Below are positions 8,363-51,549 of a stretch of DNA of 64,000 nucleotides, one piece after another. The notes under the pieces were generated by a model that was not told where the DNA came from, ran no database searches, and saw nothing but the letters and a program-made list of their open reading frames with translations. The DNA comes from Candidatus Gastranaerophilales bacterium (GTDB taxonomy: Bacteria > Cyanobacteriota > Vampirovibrionia > Gastranaerophilales > Gastranaerophilaceae), in NCBI GenBank assembly GCA_944325835.1, contig CALVBO010000001.1, forward strand, positions 1 through 64,000. Reading direction: 5' to 3'. The stretch's first letter is position 1. Each line of letters starts with the position of its first letter. The position numbers and the translations under genes were made by a program.

Positions 8363-9850
8363 ATGAAAAACCGCAGAAATGTATTAACTAATGCAGGGGG
8401 GGGGGGGAGCCGCTCAACCGGTAAATCCCGTGCCTTAGACACCAATGTCATCCTGAATAGCGAGCGTACTGAGGCACAAAGCGAGAATGTGAAGCAAAAC
8501 TGTCATGCTGAACTTGCGGATTTGCGTACGGTTGAACGCAGTGAAAACCGGATAGCGAGCAGATTGAGCCTGTTGGAGCAAAGCTCCTTAGGCGAAACTC
8601 TGCGAGCGTGGAGCAAATCCAAGACAGTTTCAGCATCTGTCCCATGTCGCGAGCTACCGTTAACGCTGGCCAGATCCCGAAATAAATTCGTCGGGATGAT
8701 ATTAAAGGAAATACCGTCATTGCGAGCTACCGAAGGGTGCGTGGCAATCCAGTCAACCAACGCAGCACCCCCATGTCATTCCGAACTTGTTTCGGAATCT
8801 GTCCCACGTTACGAGCGGGTATCCAACGTTGGCCAGACCCTGAATCAAGTTCAGGGTGACAAAAATATGCAATTTGTCCGTAAGTGTCTACCGTCATTGC
8901 GAGCGGTCGGTTTTACTATGGCAGAGATACTGTTATCTCTCACGATAATCGGTGTTGTTGCAGCGATAACGCTTCCGTCACTCACGGGCAACATCAACGA
9001 GCGCACGTGGAATACGCAGAGAAAAGCTCTTTATGCCCGTATGTCACAGGCAATTGCGCTTATGCCGGCAATAAACGGATACGGTACCTTGAAGGAAGAA
9101 AGTTCTGCCGGCGCAAGCGATGCAGTCGACACTGCAGCTGAAACTTTTGTCACAAACGGACTTGCTAAAGTCTTGAAAATTAATAATATTTGTGACAGTG
9201 AACACCTTGAGGATTGTGGTATTACGTCTAACTTTACTAATCTTACCGGCAGTTCGTTAGATTTCCCGAAAACTCTTGTAGAATTGAATCCGATGTTTAA
9301 CGGTAATTTTACTTCTGTTGAGAATGGTAATAATGTTACCTGGAGCTATTCGCAACTTGATACAAAGGCTGCCGCTTTTGAAACAGCTAATGGCGAGAGC
9401 ATTGCTGTATTTTATAATCCGGGTTGTGTAAGCGATCTGGATATGAATTATCAATATGTTCAGGCAAAAATGTGTGCAAATTTTATTTACGATCTGAACG
9501 GAAATAAGGGGCCTAATACTGTGGGTAAAGATATTGGCTTTATGTCGATACTTTATCCGACAGATTCAGTGGTGGCGGCTCCGCTTCCTGTGAATAACGA
9601 TTCCGCTGCCGGCAGCTATCAGGCTGCAATAGGTGCTTGTAATAAAATGGATACAGAAAGTCGTTTACCTAATAAAGATGAACTTTCTGCAATCTTCTTT
9701 AATAAAAATTTGGTGGGTATCAAAAATATGTATTATTGGTCCGGTACGGTTGAGTCGTCTACTTATGCCTGGAGTCAGAATATGGGCGGCGGTAACCGCA
9801 AAATTACAGATAAAACACTGTCTGCCGGTGTAAGGTGTATCAAAAGATAG
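8363..9850 (+). CDS. Type IV pilin-like protein with phase-variable leader, copy 2 (ON frame)
   Basis: The ATG at 8363 follows GGATAG and starts a basic leader (MKNRRNVLTNA) that runs into four glycines encoded by a 12-G tract. The frame then stays open for about 500 bp of palindromic repeats before the pilin signal VG|FTMAEILLSL. The long product would be 495 aa. An internal ATG at 8868 would give a normal 15-residue prepilin leader (MQFVRKCLPSLRAVG). The mature part has the conserved stalk, 'INNICDSEHLEDCGI', a variable middle, 'DLNGNKGPNTVGKDIGF' and a C-terminal lectin-like tail (RLPNKDELSAIF...YYWSGT...RCIKR). This is the only one of four visible leaders in frame with its pilin. Which start is used is not known. 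Confidence 0.8.
   Translation: MKNRRNVLTNAGGGGSRSTGKSRALDTNVILNSERTEAQSENVKQNCHAELADLRTVERSENRIASRLSLLEQSSLGETLRAWSKSKTVSASVPCRELPLTLARSRNKFVGMILKEIPSLRATEGCVAIQSTNAAPPCHSELVSESVPRYERVSNVGQTLNQVQGDKNMQFVRKCLPSLRAVGFTMAEILLSLTIIGVVAAITLPSLTGNINERTWNTQRKALYARMSQAIALMPAINGYGTLKEESSAGASDAVDTAAETFVTNGLAKVLKINNICDSEHLEDCGITSNFTNLTGSSLDFPKTLVELNPMFNGNFTSVENGNNVTWSYSQLDTKAAAFETANGESIAVFYNPGCVSDLDMNYQYVQAKMCANFIYDLNGNKGPNTVGKDIGFMSILYPTDSVVAAPLPVNNDSAAGSYQAAIGACNKMDTESRLPNKDELSAIFFNKNLVGIKNMYYWSGTVESSTYAWSQNMGGGNRKITDKTLSAGVRCIKR
8396..8407 (+). repeat. Poly-G tract, 12 G (ON)
   Basis: Twelve consecutive G encode Gly-Gly-Gly-Gly and keep the ATG at 8363 in frame with the pilin. Confidence 0.95.
8440..8900 (+). 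repeat. Translated palindromic repeat array, cassette 2
   Basis: The array includes an 87-bp unit at 8775-8861 that opens GTCATTCCGAACTTG and closes TTCAGGGTGACA. It also includes GTCATTGCGAG...GTGGCAATCCAG at about 8717-8753 and fragments around 8496 and 8630. The same units recur before cassettes 3-5 and at 39.97 kb. They are translated here (CHSELVSESV, LNQVQGD). Confidence 0.75.
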
Positions 9851-15733: not shown

Positions 15734-15802
15734 ATGAAAAAATGCAGAAATGTAATTACTTGCGCAGGGGGGGGGGGGGAGTTGCTCAACCGGTACTATT
15801 GA
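15734..15802 (+). CDS. Leader ORF of pilin cassette 3 (OFF frame)
   Basis: The ATG follows GGATATAGAA and encodes MKKCRNVITCA plus four glycines. With 13 G the frame then reads ELLNRYY and stops at 15800. Removing one G gives a frame open from here into the pilin at 15867 onward. It is homologous to the leader of cassette 2. Confidence 0.7.
   Translation: MKKCRNVITCAGGGGELLNRYY
15767..15779 (+). repeat. Poly-G tract, 13 G (OFF)
   Basis: Thirteen consecutive G. One fewer (12) would restore the leader-pilin frame. Confidence 0.95.
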
Positions 15803-25462: not shown

Positions 25463-26251
25463 ATGCGTATAAGTTCAAATTACATTACCCGACCATATTC
25501 TCAATATCAAAACAGGCAGATAAAGTCTGAAATTATGCCTGTAAGCCAGCCGCAGGTAAATTTCGGCCAATCATTCGTGCCAAAATTTATAAAGAGAATG
25601 CTTGTACCCAAGGATGTGAAGAAGAAAGCAAAATTTCACTGTTATCTGGCTGATAAGATGAAGCTTTATTTTGATTTTAATTATGGCAGAAGAAATTATA
25701 CGGTAATTTCAATCGGGCGTTCCCTGGCATCCGTTGTAGAAACACTGGGGAAGAAAAGACGCGATGTTGTGTGCCTGCCGCTTTCCGGCTTGAGTTATGA
25801 GTTGCCGTCAGAGATTAAAAATATTGAGGTTTATAGAGAATTTTTAAAATCTAAAGGGCTTACAAAAGAAATAATTGCGGCAAATCCTGACAGGCATTAT
25901 GTTCTGGTTGATAATTCAATCAGCGGACGAACCCTGCGAAATGCTAAAACGTTTTTGTCGCGTGAAGATTTGTTGGGCAATCCCGATAGACTGGAGATAA
26001 AGTCTGCTGAGGAAATTTACGGTGACAAGTATAATAAACTTTCAATGAATTATCTTTTTGCGAGTGATGAGTTTCAAGAGTTTTCACCTGTAGGGTGTTT
26101 ACACTTGCAGGACTTAAAATATACTTTTGAACAGGCGAACTATAAAACCTGCGGCATGTATGAAACCAAATCACGATTATTTCGCAAGAAATTGTTTGAT
26201 TTTTCTATACAGGATATAATTGACAGGAGTAATAAAAAACGAAACCGGTAA
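25463..26251 (+). CDS. Phosphoribosyltransferase-like protein with NFG N-terminal motif
   Basis: This 262-aa protein starts MRISSNYITRPYSQ and has VNFGQSF at about residues 36-42. The core resembles a type I PRTase: YTVISIGRSLASVVETLG and then HYVLVDNSISGRTLRNA, which fits the PRPP loop (VLVDDxxxTGxT-like). The substrate cannot be told. I selected the ATG at 25463, with AGGAG upstream, over a TTG at 25442. It is flanked by the small minus-strand ORF and a strong terminator. The N-terminal segment is shared in style with three other unknown proteins in the window. Confidence 0.6.
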   Translation: MRISSNYITRPYSQYQNRQIKSEIMPVSQPQVNFGQSFVPKFIKRMLVPKDVKKKAKFHCYLADKMKLYFDFNYGRRNYTVISIGRSLASVVETLGKKRRDVVCLPLSGLSYELPSEIKNIEVYREFLKSKGLTKEIIAANPDRHYVLVDNSISGRTLRNAKTFLSREDLLGNPDRLEIKSAEEIYGDKYNKLSMNYLFASDEFQEFSPVGCLHLQDLKYTFEQANYKTCGMYETKSRLFRKKLFDFSIQDIIDRSNKKRNR

Positions 26252-26770: not shown

Positions 26771-27168
26771 TATTTCTTACCTCCTTTAGCTGCACCTTTT
26801 TGGTTTTTCTTAGCACCGTATTTAGATCTGCTTTGTGCTCTGTTAGCAACGCCTGCAGTATCAAGGGTACCTCTGACGATGTGGTAACGAACACCAGGAA
26901 GGTCTTTAACCCTTCCGCCTCTGATAAGAACAACGCTGTGTTCTTGAAGGTTGTGACCGATACCCGGGATGTATGAAGTAACTTCAAAGCCGTTTGTTAA
27001 TCTAACTCTGGCAACTTTTCTCAAAGCTGAGTTTGGTTTTTTAGGTGTAGTAGTGTACACACGTGTGCAAACTCCGCGTCTTTGAGGACATTCCATCAAT
27101 GCCGGAGATTTCGTTTTGTCTGTCAGTTTTTTACGTTCTTGACGAACTAACTGGTTAATTGTAGGCAT
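26770..27168 (-). CDS. rpsL: 30S ribosomal protein S12
   Basis: This decoding-centre protein is 132 aa. The region [17 protein letters not shown] has the unmodified lysines associated with streptomycin sensitivity in other bacteria, and the [26 protein letters not shown] loop is intact. The ribosome site is GGAGAAATT before the ATG at 27168. A promoter lies at 27288-27316, leaving a leader of about 115 nt. Confidence 0.98.
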
Positions 27169-27323: not shown

Positions 27324-28460
27324 TTACTTCTCTTGTAACAATTTATACAGATTTCTAAGATATTGCGTGCAGCCCATATCGCGAATACGTTTGATTTCTC
27401 TGATAATCATGAATGCGGGGATATCTCCGAGTGCGGAAATATCAATATTAAGAACCTGGCGTGAGGCTATGGCAAATTCATTCTTGGCCGTAAAAATGTA
27501 TTCTTTGAGCAGATTTTTCTGAGTTGCGAGATATGGCGTCGGAGCATCTTCATAGTAGATTTGTATTAATCTGTCAAAATGTTTTTGCAAATAGCCAAAC
27601 ATTTCGGGTTTCTGGCTTAATTGCATATTCAGTGGTTTGTTGCCGCGGGCGCCGTTATCCTCGCTGCATTCCCAGATTACAATCCTTCCGCCGCTGCTTT
27701 CAGGGATTATATGTTCCATTGTTCCGAAATCTTTGTTGTAAAGTTTCATCCCGATTTCTTCGGGCGAACGTGAGGAATATTTTACGATAAATGCGTTCGT
27801 ATTGTTATCGGAGGTCGGAAGCTGCCGGATTGCATTCATAATTTTTAGTCTTACTTTGTCATCGCTAAGTGACAGTGCAAAATCATCAAACCTGCTGATT
27901 GCACTTTTACGTTTGAATTTTTTGTTTTCTTGTTTCCCGCGCTGATATAAAATTCCTTTTGTTTCGCTAAGCAGTGAATGCAGTTCCGGAACTTTGCTTT
28001 TAGGAATTTCACCGCACAGGAAGTTAAGCTCATCAAGAATTAAGAATTGTTCTCTTATCAAATTCTTTTCAGCTTTTGCGTGAAGCATTTTTAAGATTGC
28101 CTGCATGTTCATTGTCGGGTGCGCGGGTGCAAGTTCTGCCATCTTAAAGAAGATTAGTTTGTTAATCTCCGTCATGTTATGAATATTTTTGTCAAAGAGC
28201 CTTAGAGCATCGACAGCCGGTTCGTTTAAAAGCTCAAGGGGAATAAGCTTCTTTCCGCAGACAGGACAGGGAAGTCCGCACATTAAAATCTCTTTTAAGA
28301 ATTTCTTCGGAAAATATTCGTGAATTCGCGCGCTGAAATTTACACTGTCCGCACTGTTTATTTTTGCCGCGTTAGGGGGGGGGGTAGACTGAACCGCTGT
28401 TCCTGATTGAACAAGGTTTTGATTTTTATATAAATTTAGAAATACCGGTGAAATCCTCAT
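27324..28460 (-). CDS. HNH-like protein with zinc knuckle and poly-C tract
   Basis: This protein of about 378 aa starts MRISPVFLNLYKNQ and has SVNFSARIHEYF near residue 40. A CPVCGKKLI knuckle follows at about 65-75. A later segment, TMEHIIPESSGG then WECSEDNGARGNKPL, matches the His-x-x-Asn pattern of HNH nucleases (EHIIP ... N-x-x-RGN). Codons 26-29 (TPPP) contain a run of ten C. Adding one C gives an immediate TAA, and losing one gives a TAA six codons later. The ATG at 28460 is preferred over TTG at 28478. The nuclease call is from motif pattern only; target and partner are unknown. Confidence 0.55.
   Translation of the reverse strand: MRISPVFLNLYKNQNLVQSGTAVQSTPPPNAAKINSADSVNFSARIHEYFPKKFLKEILMCGLPCPVCGKKLIPLELLNEPAVDALRLFDKNIHNMTEINKLIFFKMAELAPAHPTMNMQAILKMLHAKAEKNLIREQFLILDELNFLCGEIPKSKVPELHSLLSETKGILYQRGKQENKKFKRKSAISRFDDFALSLSDDKVRLKIMNAIRQLPTSDNNTNAFIVKYSSRSPEEIGMKLYNKDFGTMEHIIPESSGGRIVIWECSEDNGARGNKPLNMQLSQKPEMFGYLQKHFDRLIQIYYEDAPTPYLATQKNLLKEYIFTAKNEFAIASRQVLNIDISALGDIPAFMIIREIKRIRDMGCTQYLRNLYKLLQEK
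28375..28384 (-). repeat. Poly-C/poly-G tract, 10 bp, in HNH-like gene
   Basis: Ten G on the plus strand (ten C in the coding strand) lie 25 codons into the gene. The present length keeps the gene open; both +1 and -1 changes stop it almost at once. Confidence 0.9.
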
Positions 28461-28502
28461 GTCCGGTTTAAAAATCAAACAAAAATTTTTTTGCTATAAT
28501 GT

Positions 28503-28751: not shown

Positions 28752-29912
28752 ATGAATATTGAAGCATTAAGAAAAGAGTCTGAGCTTGTTGATTTGTTTT
28801 GCTCGCTGGCGGAAATCCCTTCTCCGTCGCTGCATGAGGAAAACGTTGCAGAATTTATAAAAAAATACTGTGCGGAACATGGTATTCACGCAGAAAGTGA
28901 CAGTTACGGAAATGTTTATGTAAATGTTCCGGCAACTGACACCACTAAACAGCCGATTTTGCTCTCAGCGCACATGGATGTTATTGGTGATGACAGTCCT
29001 GTCGTTCCTTATCTGGACGGTGATTTAATCCGTGCAGAAGGTAGAACGCTGGGCGGGGATGACAAAGCCGGCGTAGCTAATGCGCTTTATTTTGCTGTAA
29101 AACTTGCTAAATCAGATGTTAAACACGGCGGGCTTGAACTTTTCTTTACCCGTGACGAAGAAAGCGGAATGAGCGGTATTCATAATGCTGATTTCAAAAA
29201 GCTTAAATCAAAATATGTTCTGGTCTGCGACAGCGACACGCTCGGACAGCTAGAGGTTTCGGGTGCAAGCTATACACTGGTAACGATTAACTTGAAAACC
29301 TCTAAGGGCGGTCATTCCGGCATTGACATCGGCGACAAAACCCGTTACAACGCGGCAAAACTTATTGCGGAACTTGTTAATGACCTGCCGCAGGGCGTTT
29401 TTTATGAAGAAAACGGGTTTGTTATAACCTCCTGCAATATCGGCGGAATTTCAGCCGGCAAACCGGAGGTTACAAATATTATAAATACTGATGCGCTCGT
29501 AACTTATTCAATTAGGAGTGCAAGCCGTTCAAAAGAAGCCGAACTTAAAGCTTTAATGGAAAATATTGTTCAAAAATTTAATGATAAATACGGCGAACTC
29601 GCACATGCTGAAATTACTTTTGCCGAACACTTACCGCCATTTGAAGCAAGTGATGATAAATTTTTGCCGGAGGTATTCAAAAAAGCCGGTGCAAATCTGG
29701 GGCTTGATGTGAAAGTTTCTTCTTTCCACGCAGGCGCCGAAACACATATTTATGCTAATGAAACCAATGCTTCGGGTGAAAAATTCTCGCCTTATCTCAT
29801 TGGGCTTGCCACGGTTTGTAATATGCACTCTAAAGAAGAAAATCTTGATTATAAATCGTTGCAGAAAGGTCAAGAATTGTTGAGCGAAATTTTCAAAATT
29901 TTTAACGCTTAA
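28752..29912 (+). CDS. M20-family di-zinc peptidase (PepT-like)
   Basis: This 386-aa cytoplasmic metallopeptidase probably cleaves small peptides. The zinc ligands can be placed at His in LSAHMDVIG, Asp in LGGDDKAG, Glu in TRDEESGMSG (with catalytic Glu beside it), Asp in VCDSDTLG and a late His. The dimerisation domain lies between about 190 and 290 (SKGGHSGIDIG). The pattern fits the tripeptidase T/YxeP-like branch; exact specificity is not readable. The start has AAAAGGAG upstream. It follows the structured repeat directly. Confidence 0.85.
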   Translation: MNIEALRKESELVDLFCSLAEIPSPSLHEENVAEFIKKYCAEHGIHAESDSYGNVYVNVPATDTTKQPILLSAHMDVIGDDSPVVPYLDGDLIRAEGRTLGGDDKAGVANALYFAVKLAKSDVKHGGLELFFTRDEESGMSGIHNADFKKLKSKYVLVCDSDTLGQLEVSGASYTLVTINLKTSKGGHSGIDIGDKTRYNAAKLIAELVNDLPQGVFYEENGFVITSCNIGGISAGKPEVTNIINTDALVTYSIRSASRSKEAELKALMENIVQKFNDKYGELAHAEITFAEHLPPFEASDDKFLPEVFKKAGANLGLDVKVSSFHAGAETHIYANETNASGEKFSPYLIGLATVCNMHSKEENLDYKSLQKGQELLSEIFKIFNA

Positions 29913-32351: not shown

Positions 32352-32804
32352 ATGTTACCCGTAAATTCATTGAATATGTCACAAAATAATCCTAATTTTG
32401 GATTTAAGGTTTTAGTAAAAGAGAATTCAAAACTCGTTGATATGACAGAGTCTTATCTTTTCAGGGAACTGTCTAAAGATACTATTGAACTTTTTAAAAC
32501 CAAAGCTGCAGCAATTCTGCCTGACAGAACTGTTATAGTAGAGCCTACTATCAGGCGTCCAAAACCTTTTGAATGCTTTGATGCCAATTTTTATACTGAT
32601 GATGAAAAGGTAGAAAATATTATAGATTATGATTCTCATGCATTGCTGACTTTTTTAAAAAGAGCGACAAATAAATTTACTAAAGTCCATTCCAGATTCT
32701 TCTATAATGGCGAGCAAAGTCCTGAAATGATTGCAAGAACTGAAAAATTTAGGGAAACAAGTACAAGACCATTATTAAGATTTAAAAATTCTTCCGGGAA
32801 ATAG
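32352..32804 (+). CDS. Unknown protein with NFG N-terminal motif
   Basis: This 150-aa protein starts MLPVNSLNMSQNNPNFGFKV. The rest is a mixed alpha/beta sequence with several charged stretches and no signal peptide, membrane segment or known motif. An AAGGAG site precedes the ATG by about ten bases. It follows mutS2 at 60 bp and ends before a terminator. The NFG element near the N terminus resembles those of the proteins at 25.5, 28.4 and 34.7 kb. No function can be assigned. Confidence 0.6.
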   Translation: MLPVNSLNMSQNNPNFGFKVLVKENSKLVDMTESYLFRELSKDTIELFKTKAAAILPDRTVIVEPTIRRPKPFECFDANFYTDDEKVENIIDYDSHALLTFLKRATNKFTKVHSRFFYNGEQSPEMIARTEKFRETSTRPLLRFKNSSGK

Positions 32805-34674: not shown

Positions 34675-35313
34675 ATGGACACTATTAAGATATCTGATGT
34701 TAATTTTGGCTCTTTTAATAAAAAACAGATGGCCGCGTGGCGTTTGGCAAATAAAATTCAACACTACACTAATGCTGCATATAAAGGTCATACCGGTGCA
34801 AAAGAATATAAGTTTCCGGTGATTCTTTCCTCGTCTAATAAGTTTAGAGGCAGGCTGCCTGATATAACGCCAGATTTGCATACTTTTGAAGAAAATGTTT
34901 TTCAGGAGTTAAAGGATACAAAACGTAAACCATTTGGCTTTTTCAGGGTTCTGTGGAAAATGTGCCGGAATTTTGGAACGGGTGAGCGCTGGGATACAAA
35001 ATTTTTACCTGCATTCCCCGGCAGAGATAAAAAAGGGCGTGTTCAATATGCAAGGTACAATGACCAAATTGTAACAGGCAACGATGTATCAAACATTTTC
35101 TTTGGGCATACATGTAAATTTTTGGGGATTCCGGAGAAATTATCCTTATGGATAGCACGTCTGGATGCGTCCGGAATTTTGGAGCCGTTTTCTAAAGGGA
35201 AGTTTCCTTCAAAAGAATTGTTAAACTTCAGGGATACTCATTCGGACCAACAAGCGATTGTAAAGGGTATGCGGGAGTTTGATATTAATAATTACAGATT
35301 GCGTAATATATAA
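34675..35313 (+). CDS. Unknown protein with NFG N-terminal motif
   Basis: This 212-aa protein starts MDTIKISDVNFGSFNKKQ. It is basic and soluble-looking, with aromatic segments (KPFGFFRVLWKMCRNFG) and no signal peptide or membrane segment. I do not recognise a domain. The ATG lies a few bases after TATTAT; GGAG is about 15 bases upstream, which is far for a ribosome site. It is followed 33 bp later by a membrane/TPR protein gene. The early VNFG motif links it to the other NFG proteins here. Confidence 0.6.
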   Translation: MDTIKISDVNFGSFNKKQMAAWRLANKIQHYTNAAYKGHTGAKEYKFPVILSSSNKFRGRLPDITPDLHTFEENVFQELKDTKRKPFGFFRVLWKMCRNFGTGERWDTKFLPAFPGRDKKGRVQYARYNDQIVTGNDVSNIFFGHTCKFLGIPEKLSLWIARLDASGILEPFSKGKFPSKELLNFRDTHSDQQAIVKGMREFDINNYRLRNI

Positions 35314-44334: not shown

Positions 44335-46077
44335 TTGGGCTTGCCAGCCCAACGCAATAAAAGAAAGGATGGAAAGAATGAAAAAACGAAGTGTAAGCAT
44401 TTTATCAGGGGGGGGGGGGGGCCTCTCTTAACAGGCACTATTGACGTGTCGAAAGCCATTAATTGTCATTCCGAACTTGTTTCGGAATCTGTCCCGCGAT
44501 ACGAGCAGGTATTCAACATTGACCAGACCCTGAAACGAGTTCAGGGTGACAATATTTCGTCATTGCGTGCCGACGAATGTCGGCGTGGCAATCCAGTCAA
44601 AAACACCGCGTCTCCATATTTTCATTCTGAACTGCGCGAGCGAGCAGAGGCACAAAGCGAAAACCACGCTTTTCGCGGTGCCGTTTTACGCGAGTCGAGC
44701 AAGACTGTTCCAGCATCTATCCAGCGTTGTGTTCTACCGGTGTCGTTGGATAGATCCCGAAATAAATTCGGGATGACACTGGCTGAGCCAGTTCTACAAT
44801 TGGCCCTGAGCGCCTGTACCACGAGAAAAGTAGGTGCAACGGACGTAACGCAATCGTCATCACGAGGAGCGAACGAAGTGAGCGACGTGGTGATCCAGGC
44901 CACTAAGTGGCATCCACGACTGGTTGGACATGACTTTTTAACGCCCGTCCAATTAGGAAGCCGGCTTGACCGCCGGTGGATTGCCACGCGGTCTGCGACC
45001 GCTCGCAATGACCGAGGGTGGTTAGTGCATGCAGCATTTACAATGGCAGCCCAGCTGCGCCGCTCGACTGAGTCGAGAGCCATAAAGGGTTTACGGGCTC
45101 ACGGACGACGAATAGCCTTTACAATGGCTGAAATATTATTATCTCTCACAATAATTGGCGTAGTGGCTGCAATAACGTTACCAAGCCTTACGGGAAATAT
45201 TAACGAACGCACGTGGAACACACAAAGGAAAGCGCTCTATGCACGGTTTAGTCAGGCGATAGCTCTTATGCCTGCATTAAACGGTTATGGAACTCTGACG
45301 GAAGATAGTTCTTCCGGAGCAAGCGATGCTGTCGATACAGCCGCTGAAACCTTTATTACAGCAGGACTGTCCAAAGTTATGAAAATTAATAATATTTGTG
45401 ACAATGAACACTTACCTGATTGTGGAATCGCTTCCAAAATAACAACATTGGATGCTTCAACTATGAGCTTCCCGACCACTATGGAAGCGTTAAATTCTAA
45501 TATGGTAGGCTCTTATTCAACTGCAGTTGATAATGCTAGTTTGCTAAATACAAAGGCTGCAGCATTTGAAACCCAAAACGGTGAAAGCATTGCCGTCTAC
45601 TATAATCCCCGTTGCATAGGTGATTTAAACAATAGCGGCTGGGGCTCAGGCGGTGTATATATAGCGCCTAAAGTTTGTGCAAATTTTATTTTTGATTTAA
45701 ACGGAAACAAAGGCCCTAATACTGTGGGTAAAGATATAGGCTTTTTAACCGTTATGTACCCGTCGGATCCTAAAGTCGTAATGCCTTATCCGGCAAATAA
45801 TATGCTTGGTTCTAAATATACTCATACTGCTGCTGTCAAGGCCTGTACAACTTACGATCCGGAATACAGACTTCCGAATGTTGAGGAAGCAAACTCAATT
45901 CTTGTTAATAAAAATCTGGTATCATCAACACTTGACGGGTTGACATTCGGCAATGGTATTTGGACATCATCTCCGGTTGCCCAGTTGTCACGCGGAAATT
46001 ACTGGCTTGTTTACGATCTGCAGGCTGACGATTGGCCTAAAGACAATTCACTTAATGTCTGGTGTGTAAAAAGATAA
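44335..46077 (+). CDS. Type IV pilin-like protein, copy 4 (long repeat-derived N terminus)
   Basis: The frame is open from a TTG at 44335, but that start has no ribosome site. The likely starts are the leader ATG at 44378 (if the poly-G tract is 12 or 15) or an ATG at 45043, 25 codons before the mature pilin. About 700 bp of palindromic repeats are open in this frame. The prepilin signal is RRIA|FTMAEILLSLTIIGVV. Then come INNICDNEHLPDCGI, a variable middle, DLNGNKGPNTVGKDIGF and a tail with 'YRLPNVEEANSILVNKNL', ending VWCVKR. The middle and tail are closest to pilin copy 1. It is expected at the surface. As assembled the leader is out of frame. Confidence 0.75.
   Translation: MGLPAQRNKRKDGKNEKTKCKHFIRGGGGPLLTGTIDVSKAINCHSELVSESVPRYEQVFNIDQTLKRVQGDNISSLRADECRRGNPVKNTASPYFHSELRERAEAQSENHAFRGAVLRESSKTVPASIQRCVLPVSLDRSRNKFGMTLAEPVLQLALSACTTRKVGATDVTQSSSRGANEVSDVVIQATKWHPRLVGHDFLTPVQLGSRLDRRWIATRSATARNDRGWLVHAAFTMAAQLRRSTESRAIKGLRAHGRRIAFTMAEILLSLTIIGVVAAITLPSLTGNINERTWNTQRKALYARFSQAIALMPALNGYGTLTEDSSSGASDAVDTAAETFITAGLSKVMKINNICDNEHLPDCGIASKITTLDASTMSFPTTMEALNSNMVGSYSTAVDNASLLNTKAAAFETQNGESIAVYYNPRCIGDLNNSGWGSGGVYIAPKVCANFIFDLNGNKGPNTVGKDIGFLTVMYPSDPKVVMPYPANNMLGSKYTHTAAVKACTTYDPEYRLPNVEEANSILVNKNLVSSTLDGLTFGNGIWTSSPVAQLSRGNYWLVYDLQADDWPKDNSLNVWCVKR
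44378..44431 (+). CDS. Leader ORF of pilin cassette 4 (OFF frame)
   Basis: The ATG follows AAAGGATGGAAAGA and encodes MKKRSVSILS, then five glycines, Leu, Ser and a TAA at 44429. With 12 G the frame would instead read on as PLLTGTIDVSK into the pilin. It resembles the leader of cassette 5. Confidence 0.7.
   Translation: MKKRSVSILSGGGGGLS
44408..44421 (+). repeat. Poly-G tract, 14 G (OFF)
   Basis: Fourteen consecutive G. Loss of two, or gain of one, would join the leader to the pilin frame. Confidence 0.95.
44465..45050 (+). repeat. Translated palindromic repeat array, cassette 4
   Basis: This is the longest array. It has an 87-bp GTCATTCCGAACTTG...GGGTGACA unit at 44465-44551, GTCATTGCGTGCCG...GTGGCAATCCAG from about 44560, and a unit ending TTCGGGATGACAC near 44778. 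It also has GTCATCACGAGGAG...GTGGTGATCCAGG at about 44858, and an inverted TGGATTGCCACG...CGCAATGACC at about 44977-45013. Most of it is also open on the minus strand. Confidence 0.75.
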
Positions 46078-51498: not shown

Positions 51499-51549
51499 AC
51501 GAAAAGACGAAGTGTAAGCATTTTATCAGGGGGGGGGGGGGCCGGCTGA
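51499..51549 (+). pseudogene. Leader ORF remnant of pilin cassette 5 (ATG changed to ACG)
   Basis: The codons after ACG at 51499 read KRRSVSILS and four glycines, homologous to MKKRSVSILS of cassette 4. The start is ACG instead of ATG, so initiation should be weak or absent. With 13 G the frame stops at TGA (51547). Confidence 0.6.
51529..51541 (+). repeat. Poly-G tract, 13 G (OFF)
   Basis: Thirteen consecutive G. One fewer would put the leader codons in frame with the pilin ORF. Confidence 0.95.

Follow-up and report, generated by a model that had tools for sequence, protein, structure and literature searches.

The window, a stretch of 64,000 nucleotides from a Candidatus Gastranaerophilales bacterium, contains an HNH-like gene that lies between an M20-type peptidase gene and rpsL-rpsG (Table 1). 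Its nearest ortholog, 91% identical, was found on MAG contig CALUQY010000014.1 in a single-protein scan of GTDB genomes at one locus. No Rfam matches were detected within 24-33 kb of the window. Close to its 5′ end, the coding sequence contains ten consecutive C, which are preceded by a fast-evolving leader and followed by the conserved body of the protein. In the list of open reading frames, the frame begins at a TTG at position 28478. We consider the ATG at 28460 to be the better start, because relatives share an MRI N-terminus and the exact spacing of 25 codons to the tract. No clear Shine-Dalgarno sequence was found upstream of this ATG, which would fit a true start further downstream, leaving the tract untranslated and at most modulating expression. 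Such an arrangement is highly improbable, given that four species agree in the MRI start and the 25-codon distance, with a constant pre-tract length, and that Met60, the first in-frame start past the tract, would cut off the conserved segment VNFSA...FPKKFLKE. Reading of the sequence by eye revealed no in-frame ATG, GTG or TTG between the tract and Met60. A downstream start, which the sequence-only reading had named as an objection to its own proposal, is disfavoured on these grounds.

Table 1. Features of the HNH-like locus and of the pilin-like cassettes, in window coordinates
Feature	Position	Strand	Basis or remark
HNH-like gene including its stop codon; 378 aa from the ATG at 28460 (MRISPVF)	27324..28460	-	orthologs keep the MRI start and 25 codons before the tract; dN/dS in the body
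Pre-tract leader, fast-evolving, 25 codons plus 1 nt	28385..28460	-	dN/dS 0.59 and 0.66, constant length
C10 tract (coding sense; G10 on +), proposed switch	28375..28384	-	codons 26-29 of the HNH-like gene
Stop TAA used at 11 C	28372..28374	-	frame-length test
Stop TAA used at 9 C	28358..28360	-	frame-length test
Word CTGAACCG, read on the G strand past the G run and antisense to the gene	28389..28396	+	also follows pilin poly-G runs
VNFSA, second half of the N-terminal motif M-R/K-I ... V-x-F-[GST]-[AG]	28329..28343	-	present in most of the family, also in some unrelated proteins
CPVC, first half of the putative zinc site	28257..28268	-	homolog alignment
Degenerate HNH core TMEHIIPESSGGR--IVIWECSEDNGAR	27645..27722	-	H250, G258 and N269 invariant in alignment A1; no loop with the central Asn and no second Cys
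rpsL (S12), synteny anchor downstream of the HNH-like gene	26773..27168	-	NCBIfam TIGR00981, E=2.6e-70
M20-type peptidase (PepT/PepD-like), synteny anchor in divergent orientation next to the HNH-like gene	28752..29912	+	
Four pilin-like cassettes, poly-G leaders	8396-8407, 15767-15779, 44408-44421, 51529-51541		

The tract begins at the second position of codon 26, counted from the ATG, and the ten C that the sequence-only reading had placed at codons 26-29 are confirmed by the G10 on the plus strand. The present state is open, as had been claimed, since C10 leaves the frame of 378 codons intact; C7 or C13 would do the same. Both stops predicted for altered tract lengths also proved right in the frame-length test: with C11, a TAA directly follows PPP and the product ends after 29 aa, and with C9, LTRQK is read before a TAA five codons on terminates a product of 33 aa. 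Chance is no source of such runs here, as G/C octamers had 27 matches in the window compared to 0.43 expected from shuffles. Proline codon use does not account for the C run either, because CCC is rare, making up 11 of the 269 proline codons counted over 12 window genes.

The position of the gene beside rpsL, with syntenic flanks, is shared by all seven genus genomes compared. Exactly C10 at codon 26 was found in four species (L001, L002, L004 and L005, one genome per species), so that all four resolved orthologs are open, and in each of them both C9 and C11 lead to truncation at 29-46 aa. In a fifth genome (G004), the assembly shows C9-NN-C11 at the tract, and in a sixth (G001), the contig ends about there. 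The ortholog in G005, of the same genus, lacks the tract, and this genome is devoid of any G/C run of at least 9. Codons 30-45, which flank the tract, differ at 0.75-0.84 per synonymous site in two close pairs and are thus nearly saturated, while the ten C are unchanged, indicating that the tract nucleotides, and not the prolines alone, are kept or remade. The dN/dS of the gene body (0.08 and 0.17) points to strong purifying selection and hence to a protein in use. Some contig ends of this assembly carry A-rich sequence followed by G-run junk (L090:5897-5935, L105:53 and L120:3243-3272); these are probably assembly artefacts and were left uninterpreted. That the tract of the HNH-like gene is itself an artefact of sequencing or assembly, such as Illumina poly-G, has a negligible probability, considering that the run is internal and that the same C10 occurs in independently assembled species.

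Thirty homologs within the order share the motifs CPxCG, LPTS....AF.VKY and T.EHI.P.S.GG...C..N..R, and CPxC is kept in most of them. In alignment A1, His250, Gly258 and Asn269 are invariant, and the acidic residue before the catalytic His is present (E249-H250). At E<0.01, 12 of 19 family members matched the Pfam family HNH_5 and 10 of 19 matched HNH; the window protein stays under the curated cut-off (17.4 vs 27.5 bits). Among PDB entries, the family profile matched a Cas9 HNH domain (8d2k, E=2.1e-5) and an HNH endonuclease (4h9d, E=1.9e-4), with the EHI...C..N core aligned. An AlphaFold2 prediction from an input of only two sequences, the window protein and its 91% identical relative, had a mean pLDDT of 41.8, too low to speak for or against the beta-beta-alpha metal fold. 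The window protein resembles the HNH endonucleases of PF14279 (HNH_5) and PF01844 (HNH) in the EHIxPxSxGG...C..N core and the CPxC pair, but differs from them by a long helical insert, a C-terminal extension and the lack of the central-Asn loop and the second Cys. The four-residue loop bearing this Asn is absent from the genus and from L007, and the paired CxxC zinc site is incomplete, since CPVC is kept but EC..CN has become EC..DN in the genus. Judging from these alignments, we read the window protein as an HNH-superfamily member of a diverged branch, whose catalysis is uncertain.

The suggestion of a possible nuclease thus holds as far as the relation to the HNH superfamily is concerned, whereas nuclease activity is doubtful because this genus has lost the loop with the central Asn together with one of the zinc Cys. 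Nothing speaks for the term effector, offered along with it: the adjacent genes include none for immunity or secretion, and the body of the protein shows strong conservation. A toxin-immunity pair was rejected, as no partner gene is present from rpsL to the peptidase gene. A defence role was not adopted, since PADLOC matches (PtuB and others) were weak and none of them fell on the window protein. An N-terminal pattern of the type M-R/K-I ... [VI]-x-F-[GSTK]-[GA] recurs in unrelated proteins and most HNH-family members, in the window at 25463-26248, 28329-28460, 32352-32801 and 34675-35310 and elsewhere at L091, L092 and L097; three non-pilin tract genes carry the pattern. The M-R/K-I ... [VI]-x-F pattern is perhaps a targeting signal.

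Long G/C runs are numerous in this genome (G000), where 97 runs reach a length of 8 or more and 95 a length of 9 or more; in five congeners, 85-132 runs have a length of 9 or more. In the 0.5 Mb read, run lengths form two peaks: hardly any run measures 7-10, and 13 is the mode, which places the C10 of the HNH-like gene among the shortest tracts of the genome. About 75 tracts in G000 are preceded by an ATG and followed by a type-IV-pilin-like body; a C-terminal end of the Lcl_C type was found in the one pilin tested. Of the pilin leaders that could be read through, 41 were closed and nine open, and most of the closed ones were a single base away from open. Genes with tracts outside the pilin family include three coding for AlgX-like proteins (acetyltransferases), an AAA ATPase, and LuxR-type and tail-fibre-like proteins. 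This mix of open and closed pilin genes, together with the nature of the non-pilin genes, supports switching as a shared purpose of the tracts. The close relative G002 has no counterpart to any of the four window pilin cassettes at the syntenic places, where the matching flanks are 89-98% identical, indicating that these cassettes are gained and lost as units. In the leaders of the window pilins, long REP-like stretches are in frame (HAELVSESVPRYE...). Several contigs break off at a tract. In G019, which belongs to another genus (L122-L140), about 89 G runs were seen, mostly G10 in a repeated element, taaaccgctcataccaaaggttttggcg, and without a pilin leader. Loss of mismatch repair was rejected as the cause of the tracts, because MutS_I and MutL_C are present in nearly all relatives, tract-rich or not.

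The orientation of the tracts explains why the HNH-like gene carries poly-C. Third-position GC skew in the window is positive on the plus strand (0.12 and 0.10 for genes of each direction measured separately); the HNH-like gene is on the minus strand, and its G run is on the plus strand. In three genera, long G runs were nearly always located on the positive-skew strand, with ratios to the other strand of 75:7 in G000, 47:1 in G027 and 9:0 in G012 (sampled), whereas control runs of 5-7 were distributed 57:37, 23:11 and 26:32, respectively, or about 55:45 overall. On contig 11 of G012, all 16 runs at 385-758 kb are on the plus strand and all five beyond 823 kb, where the skew flips, are on the minus strand. 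About six poly-G pilin tracts of G000, which have another leader, are exceptions to the strand rule. The labels leading and lagging rest on the usual sign of GC skew. Placing the origin by dnaA was rejected, as dnaA of G012 lies inside a uniform skew block, and we therefore use the wording positive-skew strand. If long G runs are held on this strand, lagging-strand genes will carry poly-C, and opposite-strand leaders of the pilin type in G027 and G012 indeed use it (e.g. MRKQKILRACPPPRKPYLTSTYNGFTLSEVL, open at C11). The tract hence follows the replication strand and not the coding sense, making the HNH-like gene the lagging-strand case of the pilin element. The sequence-only reading had regarded the locus as a second type of contingency locus; it is instead the element known from the pilin poly-G tracts, here in a gene on the negative-skew strand. 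The accompanying remark that the homopolymer is of the same type as in the pilins was correct, as the G run, the strand and the flanking word are shared.

The word that follows the G run at this locus, CTGAACCG, was evaluated with a PWM built from 42 unique pilin leaders and gave an empirical p=0.0007 in comparison with sites after short G runs. Orthologs of the HNH-like gene carry CTGAACCG, CTTAACAG or CTGAACAG at the word site, and the pilin words in the genus are CTKARCMG-like (also written CTKAACMG). Unrelated tract loci also scored for the word (L083, 0.0018; L111, 0.0029); no score was obtained at the tract loci L071, L080 and L087, and the word does not score on the other flank of the G run. 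Different words follow the run in genes of both directions in other genomes, of a GCGTA type in G027 and of an AAAGCTT type in G012. The tracts of G019 sit in other repeats and are without the following word. At L111:2979 and L116:9533, related sites with G14 followed by CTTAACAG/TTTAACAG lie outside any frame of at least 60 aa. That the word follows the G run in either gene direction suggests a module acting at the DNA level. Tentatively, and as a possibility we would not rank as likely, the Gastranaerophilaceae may carry a hypermutable module locked to the replication strand, which consists of a G run on the lagging-template strand and a lineage-specific word. The word would be read in replication, as a bound, priming or pausing site, to raise slippage, and genes of either strand, the HNH-like gene among them, would have taken up the module.

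Taken together, the HNH-like gene is probably a simple-sequence contingency locus, subject to phase variation by slipped-strand mispairing on a strand-locked tract module. Replication slippage in G10/C10 would add or remove one base; 10 (or 7 or 13) C would yield the full HNH-like protein, and 9 or 11 C would stop translation at 29-46 residues. Extra prolines might do little harm at the site of the tract, a fast-evolving linker that joins the start to the conserved body. The hypermutable element would be the same as in the roughly 75 pilin poly-G tracts, with the G run kept on the positive-skew strand, by convention the leading one, and consequently read as poly-C in an opposite-strand gene. 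This interpretation is supported by the tract and the two-way truncation in four species, the unchanged C run amid nearly saturated synonymous sites, the purifying selection on the body, the abundance of tracts here and in five congeners but not in G005, the mixed open and closed pilins, the kinds of non-pilin tract genes and the strand rule with its short-run control, as well as by the assembly stop in G001 and the NN in G004. Counting against switching, the four resolved orthologs are all C10 and open, with no length variant among them, and genes for MutS and MutL were found. Since single-base slippage is usually damped by mismatch repair, it would need to be frequent or to evade repair. Being shorter than the 12-14 nt common elsewhere, the tract of the HNH-like gene would be expected to switch less often and to be ON most of the time. 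We infer that tract length varies in living populations, that the tract controls expression and that strand and word affect slippage. Phase variation by slippage, as originally proposed, thus finds good, though indirect, support in a conserved hypermutable tract with two-way truncation in four species, within a set of about 95 tracts, and is weakened by the uniform length of 10.

The same constancy, the short tract where the genome mode is 13, the strong purifying selection on the body and the retained MutS and MutL would also fit a real tract without a useful switching rate, left over from or maintained by a strand-specific mutational bias, with the gene in effect always ON. We regard this as unlikely, because random third-position changes should have broken three CCC codons over such divergence, because the tract-free congener G005 demonstrates that tracts are not obligatory, and because C10 is inside the switching range of Campylobacter, 8-12 (PMC5135748). 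Very unlikely is a site of transcriptional or translational slippage that yields a fixed product mix from one allele. Homopolymers of 10 can slip in RNA, and C7, C10 and C13 are equivalent in frame, but the truncated products, of only 29-46 aa, would contain no conserved sequence, the pilin tracts, which have the same element, are mostly closed already in the DNA, and the G-strand rule points to DNA replication. Phase variation on the strand-locked tract remains the reading that we prefer.

A full-text literature search for Gastranaerophilales together with phase variation found no paper, and this gut-common, largely uncultured lineage thus appears to have one of the larger sets of homopolymer switches. 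The strand rule makes the influence of replication direction on the evolution of contingency tracts testable by counting, and a conserved non-pilin switch beside rpsL offers a stable marker for tracking switching in metagenomes. Compared to the pilin poly-G tracts of the same genome, the tract of the HNH-like gene has the same G run, following word and strand, but it is antisense to its gene, shorter (10 vs 12-14) and in frame in every species seen, and its locus is syntenic, unlike the window cassettes that are missing from the corresponding places in G002. The best comparison from outside is Campylobacter jejuni, in which 27-29 poly-G/poly-C contingency tracts of 8-12 nt have been described (PMC5135748). 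Both systems have G/C homopolymers within reading frames, one-base switching and a prominence of surface and sugar-modifying genes. In contrast to C. jejuni, there are about 95 tracts here, most of them in one pilin family and commonly with lengths of 12-14. The placement of the G run almost always on the positive-skew strand, in whichever direction the gene reads, and the short word after it were recorded in Gastranaerophilales and would be further differences.
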